Shown piece by piece: positions 19,432-20,400 of a stretch of 32,589 nucleotides of DNA (positions are counted from its first letter, which is position 1; each line of letters begins with the position of its first letter). The notes under the pieces were generated by a model, which was given only the letters and a program-made list of their open reading frames with translations, made no database searches and was not told the origin of the DNA. Source of the stretch: Gemmatimonadota bacterium (GTDB lineage: Bacteria > Gemmatimonadota > Gemmatimonadetes > Gemmatimonadales > Gemmatimonadaceae); NCBI GenBank assembly GCA_947461225.1, contig CANHJV010000028.1:1-32589 (forward strand), read 5' to 3'. The position numbers were made by a program, and so were the translations under genes.

Positions 19432-19617
19432 TTAGCGCTTCTGGTCTGGACCCGACGGGGTGTCGCGCACGACGATGCGCCAGATCACGAGAAAGACGCC
19501 ACCGGTGAGCATCAGGTGGATCCAACCGGGGGCGTCGGTCGTATACGTGACACCGCCCCACGCGATGAGCATCACGATTCCGGCAAGCAGATAGAGGTCC
19601 ATGCCGTAATCTCGCAT
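19432..19617 (-). CDS. Small two-helix membrane protein, DUF5670/lmo0937-like
   Basis: This 61-residue protein has two hydrophobic segments, LYLLAGIVMLIAWGGVTY and WIHLMLTGGVFLVIWRIVV, joined by a short turn, and a polar charged tail. This matches the small lmo0937-type (DUF5670) family, where a glycine/tryptophan-isoleucine-histidine turn precedes the second helix. The function of that family is not known; some members are associated with stress. The start may be ATG 19617 or the internal ATG five codons later. Its upstream side faces the structured RNA promoter, so the two are divergent. The coding call is good; the family call is from memory of the pattern. Confidence 0.65.
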   Translation of the reverse strand: MRDYGMDLYLLAGIVMLIAWGGVTYTTDAPGWIHLMLTGGVFLVIWRIVVRDTPSGPDQKR

Positions 19618-19646
19618 TGCGCACGCCGTGGCGCACCATATACAAT
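19617..19646 (+). promoter_or_regulatory. Promoter of the structured RNA
   Basis: TTGCGC (19617-19622) and TACAAT (19641-19646) are separated by 18 nt and point to a transcript starting near 19653. TACAAT is one of the best sigma-70-type -10 boxes in the window. The -35 overlaps the start codon of the divergent small membrane protein gene. Confidence 0.5.
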
Positions 19647-19652
19647 ATCGGC

Positions 19653-19882
19653 GTGTAGTACCGATCCTCCGGGGTCGATACTCAACCCGTATGCGGGGCG
19701 GAGAGAATTACCTCTTGAGCCGATAAGTCCTAAGAAAAGGTCCGACAGACTGCGTTTACGTCATGCCCCAGTGCGGGGAAGGCGACCGCGCGGTGAGGAC
19801 CTTATCAGTATTCTTTGGGCTTCAAGACCTCCTCTTCGTTCCGCACCTTGTGCGAAAGCCCCGCCGGTTGGCGGGGCTTTCG
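19653..19882 (+). ncRNA. Structured RNA, candidate 6S-like RNA
   Basis: This gene-free stretch folds well by eye. A first hairpin pairs 19658-19667 with 19672-19681 (9 of 10 pairs, loop UCCG), and a second is CCCG-UAUG-CGGG at 19686-19697. A rod follows. Its base pairs GCGGA (19698-19702) with UCCGC (19840-19844); then comes a large internal bubble; then an apical arm closed by GGUCC (19739-19743) and GGACC (19797-19801) with nested CUGCG/CGCGG, GUC/GAC and CCCC/GGGG. The 5' bubble strand has TTGAGCCGATA (19715-19725), close to the CTGAGCCGATA of E. coli 6S RNA. The 3' strand can form a small hairpin, as in 6S. The bubble strands can also pair (UCUUGAGCC with GGGCUUCAAGA). 6S RNA mimics an open promoter and binds RNA polymerase. 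An attenuator leader for the pterin genes is the alternative. The structure is seen; the identity is inferred. Confidence 0.5.
19853..19882 (+). terminator. Strong intrinsic terminator of the structured RNA
   Basis: CGAAAGCCCCGCC and GGCGGGGCTTTCG form a perfect 13-bp stem with the tetraloop GGTT, followed by TGTGTCTGTCC. It ends the RNA about 100 nt before the pterin synthase start and would insulate that operon. The following ~100 nt (19883-19986) hold no promoter I can support. Confidence 0.85.
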
Positions 19883-19986
19883 TGTGTCTGTCCCTGAGCC
19901 GAAGGTCGTGGGCTGCCGTACTGGCACGCACCGGGGCGACGGGCCGGCCGATGGAACCTCTCCCCCGTTCGGGTCGTTGGGTACCT

Positions 19987-20400
19987 ATGCCTATCGTCAC
20001 CGCCACGCGACTGCTGCGCTTCAATGCGGCCCACCGCGTTCACAATCCTGCGCTCTCCGACGAGGAGAACACCCGCCTGTTCGGCAAGTGCAACAATCCG
20101 AACTGGCACGGTCACAACTACACGCTCGAGGTCTCGGTCAAGGGACCGGTCGACGAGCGCACCGGTTATGTGATCGACCTCGGGCTGTTGCGCGATACGG
20201 TGGAGCGGCACGTGGTCAGCGTGACCGACCATCGCAATTTCAATATCGACGTGCCCTACATGCAGGGGATCAACCCAACCACGGAGAATGTCGTGGTCGG
20301 CATGTGGCGTGAGTTGGAGCCGGTCGTGGCGCCCGGAAAACTGGTGCGGCTGCGCCTGTGGGAAACCGAGAATAACTATGTCGACTACGAGGGAGAGTAA
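19987..20400 (+). CDS. 6-pyruvoyltetrahydropterin synthase
   Basis: This enzyme converts 7,8-dihydroneopterin triphosphate to 6-pyruvoyltetrahydropterin, step two of tetrahydrobiopterin synthesis. The 137-residue length fits. Zinc ligands are H16 (FNAAHR) and H41/H43 in [11 protein letters not shown], and the catalytic cysteine is C35. The [11 protein letters not shown] segment, the TTENV motif and the [12 protein letters not shown] end closely follow the animal PTPS pattern, more than bacterial QueD, which has a shorter Cys-to-HGH region. ATG 19987 is chosen because the ORF-track extension runs through the structured RNA and its terminator. folE follows 4 nt downstream. A role in queuosine synthesis (QueD) is the alternative, but no other queuosine gene is present. 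Confidence 0.85.

Follow-up and report, generated by a model that had tools for sequence, protein, structure and literature searches.

A predicted intergenic RNA gene upstream of queD and folE is very probably the 6S RNA of a Gemmatimonas genome

In Escherichia coli, synthesis of the 6S product RNA begins at U44 of the GCCGAU motif. For Bacillus subtilis 6S-1 and Aquifex aeolicus 6S, collapse of the central bubble has been reported (PMC8876501). The Ms1 RNA of Actinobacteria, a rod resembling 6S, acts on RNA polymerase, and the fau/ygfA gene adjoins 6S in several groups (PMC9130861). Our literature search returned no 6S RNA under the names Gemmatimonas, Gemmatimonadetes, or Gemmatimonadota; an earlier listing in the 2014 survey of 6S RNAs (Wehner et al.) is possible. 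Here, we analyzed a DNA stretch of 32,589 nucleotides (the window), in which an earlier note had described a structured RNA at 19653-19882 as possibly 6S RNA. Covariance models support this suggestion in both directions, and we consider this RNA to be the 6S RNA of the Gemmatimonas genome with a probability of roughly 93%.

Promoter, leader, and fold of the RNA gene

The gap between a small reverse ORF and queD (ATG at 19987) contains no supported gene, in agreement with the gene-free gap claimed earlier. The reverse ORF (19432-19617, minus strand) encodes 61 aa, is hydrophobic, runs divergently from the 6S promoter, and has no Pfam match. It is kept beside the 6S RNA in family relatives, with 38-92% identity. 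The RNA gene and its promoter comprise the following features:

19617..19646, plus strand: promoter, with the -35 box TTGCGC (19617-19622), an 18-nt spacer, and the -10 box TACAAT (19641-19646)
19653..19689, plus strand: 5' leader with a single hairpin (19654-19684) in the fold; clade-specific insertion between the promoter and the 6S body
19690..19847, plus strand: conserved body of the putative 6S RNA (models R1 and R2; cross-detection with Rfam 6S and E. coli ssrS)
19692..19705, plus strand: closing stem, 5' strand, pairing with 19832-19845 (covariation, fold)
19713..19721, plus strand: helix P2, 5' strand UCUUGAGCC, pairing with 19817-19827 (covariation, Rfam 6S consensus)
19724, plus strand: presumed start base of the product RNA, homologue of E. 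coli U44 (pyrimidine conservation, E. coli alignment)
19725..19730, plus strand: distal 5' bubble strand AAGUCC, candidate 5' strand of the bubble collapse with GGGCUU (19817-19822)
19734..19806, plus strand: apical arm with the conserved tip CAUGCCCC-AGUGC-GGGGAAGGC (fold, covariation)
19807..19816, plus strand: central bubble, 3' strand (fold)
19817..19827, plus strand: helix P2, 3' strand GGGCUUCAAGA (Rfam 6S consensus, covariation, fold)
19832..19845, plus strand: closing stem, 3' strand (covariation, fold)
19853..19882, plus strand: terminator hairpin of 13 bp with a weak T-run, TTTCGTGTGTCTGTCC (fold)

The TACAAT box had been proposed as a promoter from the window alone. It is preceded by TTGCGC, and this pair is kept in most genus relatives at a spacing of 17-18 nt. 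The pair was recognized solely through this comparison with relatives, and a strict scan for the sigma-70 consensus detected no promoter site. In other families, pairs resembling TTGAC(N)/TATATT are located 1-20 nt upstream of the closing stem. Transcription is predicted to start near 19653.

The 19653-19882 segment folded with -110.6 kcal/mol (z = -5.9), and none of 200 shuffles was as stable. The body by itself (19690-19847) reached a folding z of -4.8 compared to shuffled sequence. The minimum-energy fold consists of one 5' hairpin, the closing stem, P2, the bubble, the apical arm, and the terminator hairpin. The rod with a bubble and the 13-bp terminator, both previously described, are therefore present, the latter with a T-run that is weak. 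Aligned relatives also have a hairpin at the terminator position, with differing sequences. The TTGAGCCGATA segment, which had been likened to E. coli 6S, is located at 19715-19725.

Of the two 5' hairpins that had been proposed, the one at 19654-19684 appears in the minimum-energy fold, whereas the second (CCCGUAUGCGGGG) would take up closing-stem bases on the 5' side. A hairpin-forming leader, 36-51 nt long, was found in the RNA of the window and in eight close relatives. In several other genus members, the promoter almost adjoins the closing stem, with no leader and with the -10 box ~16 nt before the body. Outside the closest relatives, conservation in the DNA similarity search begins at ~19690 rather than at 19653. 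The conserved unit is 19690-19886, and the first ~37 nt are the clade-specific leader. Judged from these sequence comparisons, the additional 5' hairpin is an insertion or extension confined to close relatives, and it loses the weight against 6S that it had been given.

The pairing between UCUUGAGCC and GGGCUUCAAGA had likewise been regarded as an alternative structure atypical of 6S. It is actually the helix that adjoins the bubble in the ground state (P2). The Rfam 6S consensus contains this helix, cccCuGAgCC/GGuUCaAggg, beside the bubble, and the E. coli version is CCCCUGAGCC/GGUUCAAGGG. This pairing therefore speaks for 6S and not against it.

Covariation was computed on alignment A2 (44 matches from several families), which was fitted to the model and so leans toward structure. 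Standard pairs occupied 94.8% of the A2 cells, compared to 79.2% in shuffles, and none of the 500 shuffles reached the observed value. When the pairing partners were slid by 1-3 columns as a control, pairing dropped to 43-56%. Compensatory changes, which the earlier note had proposed to look for, were double-sided in 28 of the 35 pairs. All 10 modelled pairs of the closing stem had changed on both sides, with 97% of cells paired. P2 was paired in 98-99% of cells, with C-G, U-A, and A-U exchanges, and the helices of the apical tip were also 98-99% paired, with compensatory changes present. These alignment data argue strongly for covariation of the helices, with margins that are large despite the structure-leaning alignment. 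The RNA thus combines the rod, closing stem, P2, central bubble, and apical arm of 6S RNA with compensatory changes.

Relationship to 6S RNA and occurrence in the phylum

The Rfam 6S model (RF00013), the search suggested in the earlier note, gave no match in the window at the gathering threshold or at E <= 10. The weak Rfam matches in the window lay on or around the terminator hairpin. In the genome from which the window originates (88.7% complete), the best Rfam 6S match scored 11.9 bits (L001) and is not credible. The gathering cut-off is a database threshold, and four of the eight control genomes with a match fall below it. Sub-threshold Rfam 6S matches were obtained in 15 of the 59 family genomes. 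All 15 coincide with a match, in the same genome, of R1, a covariance model built from alignment A1 of 33 relatives.

The Rfam 6S cut-off was exceeded in a single genome out of 200 from the phylum, namely G224 of the same class (56.6 bits, with the cut-off at 46.4 bits). The RNA of G224 (L090) was also matched by R1 with 49.6 bits, and R1 had been built without G224. A second covariance model (R2) was built from A2, with the G224 sequence included. In the opposite direction, R2 matched E. coli ssrS (annotated as L096:484-666) at positions 492-655 over the full model length. This match is modest (20.1 bits, E = 0.0013 in 47 kb), and its E-value is rough. Because Rfam, G224, R1, and R2 are connected by these cross-matches, the RNA shares common descent with 6S RNA, while scoring below the Rfam gathering cut-off. 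Its predicted length, independent intergenic location, predicted promoter and terminator, and usual single copy are those of a 6S gene (~180-230 nt). The comparisons show a predicted intergenic RNA gene of ~190-230 nt that has its own conserved promoter and the 6S architecture and is homologous to E. coli ssrS. It adds a new clade to a known family, outside the reach of the Rfam cut-off.

A DNA similarity search against 60 relatives detected the RNA in 27 of the 29 members of the genus, and further genera of the family also had it. R1 matched 57 of 59 family genomes, one of these matches being a fragment of 26 bases where a contig ends. Across the phylum, the RNA was found in 186 of 200 genomes with R1 and in 286 of 297 genomes with R2, the latter including four of five genomes of another class. 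It was nearly always present as a single copy in both searches. Three nearly complete phylum genomes (G204, G210, and G110) stayed without a 6S match when searched more fully, which reflects either real loss or further divergence.

When sequenced species were searched with a motif, nearly all named matches were to Gemmatimonas, Gemmatimonadaceae, and other Gemmatimonadota. Pattern matches in Acinetobacter (L136), Dehalococcoidia (L165), and Peregrinibacteria (L201) were rejected as chance. None had an Rfam 6S call, and R2 gave no match for L136 and L165 and 13.4 bits (E = 0.06) for L201. On two contigs, L174 (JAHEKL010000213.1) and L183 (JAPPJO010000075.1), a 6S of the Gemmatimonadota type precedes queD and folE, although both contigs come from metagenome bins labelled Gammaproteobacteria. 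They are probably misbinned or mislabelled.

Several genomes in several families contain two diverged 6S-like loci each. The two-copy pairs are L067/L269 (G080), L258/L268 (G286), L254/L273, L255/L272, and L257/L276, and further pairs are L260/L270, L264/L271, L267/L277, L256/L278, L259/L274, and L266/L275. Some of the second copies grouped by themselves in a small, rough tree, with the weak support given by a short RNA. Four family genomes (G068, G069, G083, and G239) have the divergent 6S type only. In some two-copy genomes, one 6S copy was observed a few bases from a tRNA gene (L267, L272, L273, L276, and L277).

Product RNA template and neighboring genes

Alignment with E. coli identified U19724 as the base homologous to U44. 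Among 70 distinct sequences, this base, part of a GCCRAY motif at the edge of the bubble, is U in 35 and C in 35, so that all 70 have a pyrimidine and none has a purine. This is what would be expected if transcription starts here. A product RNA beginning at 19724 as 5'-AUCGGCUCAAGAG, antisense to 19712-19724, is predicted, and its first nine bases are the same as in E. coli. The 5' strand of P2 (UCUUGAGCC) doubles as the template of this predicted product.

The fold class by itself does not separate binding of the core enzyme from binding of the holoenzyme, so that a 6S-shaped RNA could also act like actinobacterial Ms1, on core RNA polymerase without sigma and with no template role. The template motif and the pyrimidine start base, kept in all 70 sequences, argue against such a role. 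Moreover, the sequence homology points to 6S, no Rfam family besides 6S was called, and the Rfam search of the window at gathering thresholds gave no match to Ms1. An Ms1-like action is therefore very unlikely.

The RNA is followed by a queD-like gene and then folE, recognized by Pfam as PTPS and GTP_cyclohydroI, respectively. In 29 of 35 loci, one or both of these genes follow the RNA in the same orientation, an arrangement that would suit a cis-acting leader or riboswitch controlling queD and folE, which the earlier note had considered. However, the other six loci keep the RNA with neither gene downstream, so the link is not obligatory, and the RNA also occurs in another class. Its own terminator hairpin ends the RNA ~100 nt before queD, and Rfam gave no riboswitch match in the window, not even among the weak matches. 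Cross-detection with 6S accounts for the RNA, and 6S is known to have a folate gene as neighbor, as fau follows ssrS in E. coli. Control of queD and folE by this RNA is highly improbable. Because the RNA remains where queD and folE are missing, and because the fau order is familiar, we read the pterin genes beside it as conserved gene order and not as a sign of a switch.

A new RNA class unrelated to 6S, also raised earlier, would fit the lack of any Rfam 6S score in the window and the extra 5' hairpin, but this hairpin is a local insertion, the Rfam 6S/E. coli ssrS and Gemmatimonadota models detect each other, and L090 satisfies both models, so that a resemblance without kinship is highly improbable and largely refuted.

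Predicted refolding and comparison with known systems

As a 6S RNA, the molecule should refold once its template has been copied. With the template blocked in folding, the known 9-bp 3' hairpin was recovered for E. coli, which served as the control. In the RNA of the window and most of the relatives listed, the GGGCUU strand instead paired with a distal segment of the 5' bubble strand, which reads AAGUCC in the window. A 3' hairpin of the E. coli type after product RNA synthesis was rejected, because a local 3' hairpin formed in only 14 of 63 cores. Within the family and order, this distal strand reads AAGUCC or AAGCUC, and other families have GAAGCC. The bubble-collapse pairing was significant in 12 of 19 class-level sequences, with p ~0.1 for the window alone.

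By analogy with the 6S family, the folded RNA would mimic an open promoter and occupy the RNA polymerase holoenzyme containing the housekeeping sigma, which would lower transcription once nutrients are depleted. With nucleotides available again, the polymerase would start on U19724 and copy toward the 5' end of the RNA. Synthesis of the product RNA would unwind P2, and the freed GGGCUU could then pair with AAGUCC in a central-bubble collapse that takes the place of the E. coli 3' hairpin. The polymerase would then be released. We tentatively propose, at somewhat less than even odds, a deeply diverged Gemmatimonadota 6S lineage in which the polymerase is released by bubble collapse, with GGGCUU(C) switching from UUGAGCC to AAGUCC (GAAGCC in other families), and in which several families have duplicated, diverged 6S RNAs that possibly divide roles.

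The 6S reading supplies a missing part of the known distribution of a global transcription regulator, in a phylum that is common in soil and water, and for which the Rfam cut-off almost never reports 6S (1/200 genomes). The alignments are a ready annotation model, and the predicted product RNA can be searched for in small-RNA data. The phylum also offers a natural test of whether polymerases are widely released by bubble collapse, with the E. coli hairpin as a local innovation.

Compared to Ms1, which binds the core enzyme, the Gemmatimonas RNA differs in its conserved template motif for a product RNA. With E. coli ssrS (RF00013), it shares the closing stem, P2, central bubble, and apical arm with the CAUGC...GAAG(G)C tip, and UGAGCCGAUA is common to both at the start of the product RNA. 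Both are single-copy intergenic genes with a folate or pterin gene downstream. The two RNAs differ in sequence (~41% identity in the aligned body, 63/155), in the clade-specific extra 5' hairpin of the Gemmatimonas RNA, and in the score of the latter below the Rfam cut-off. They also differ in their template-blocked folds, with a 9-bp 3' hairpin in E. coli and bubble collapse in the RNA of the window. A bubble collapse like the one predicted here has been reported for B. subtilis 6S-1 and Aquifex. Like B. subtilis, some Gemmatimonadota genomes carry two copies of 6S RNA.
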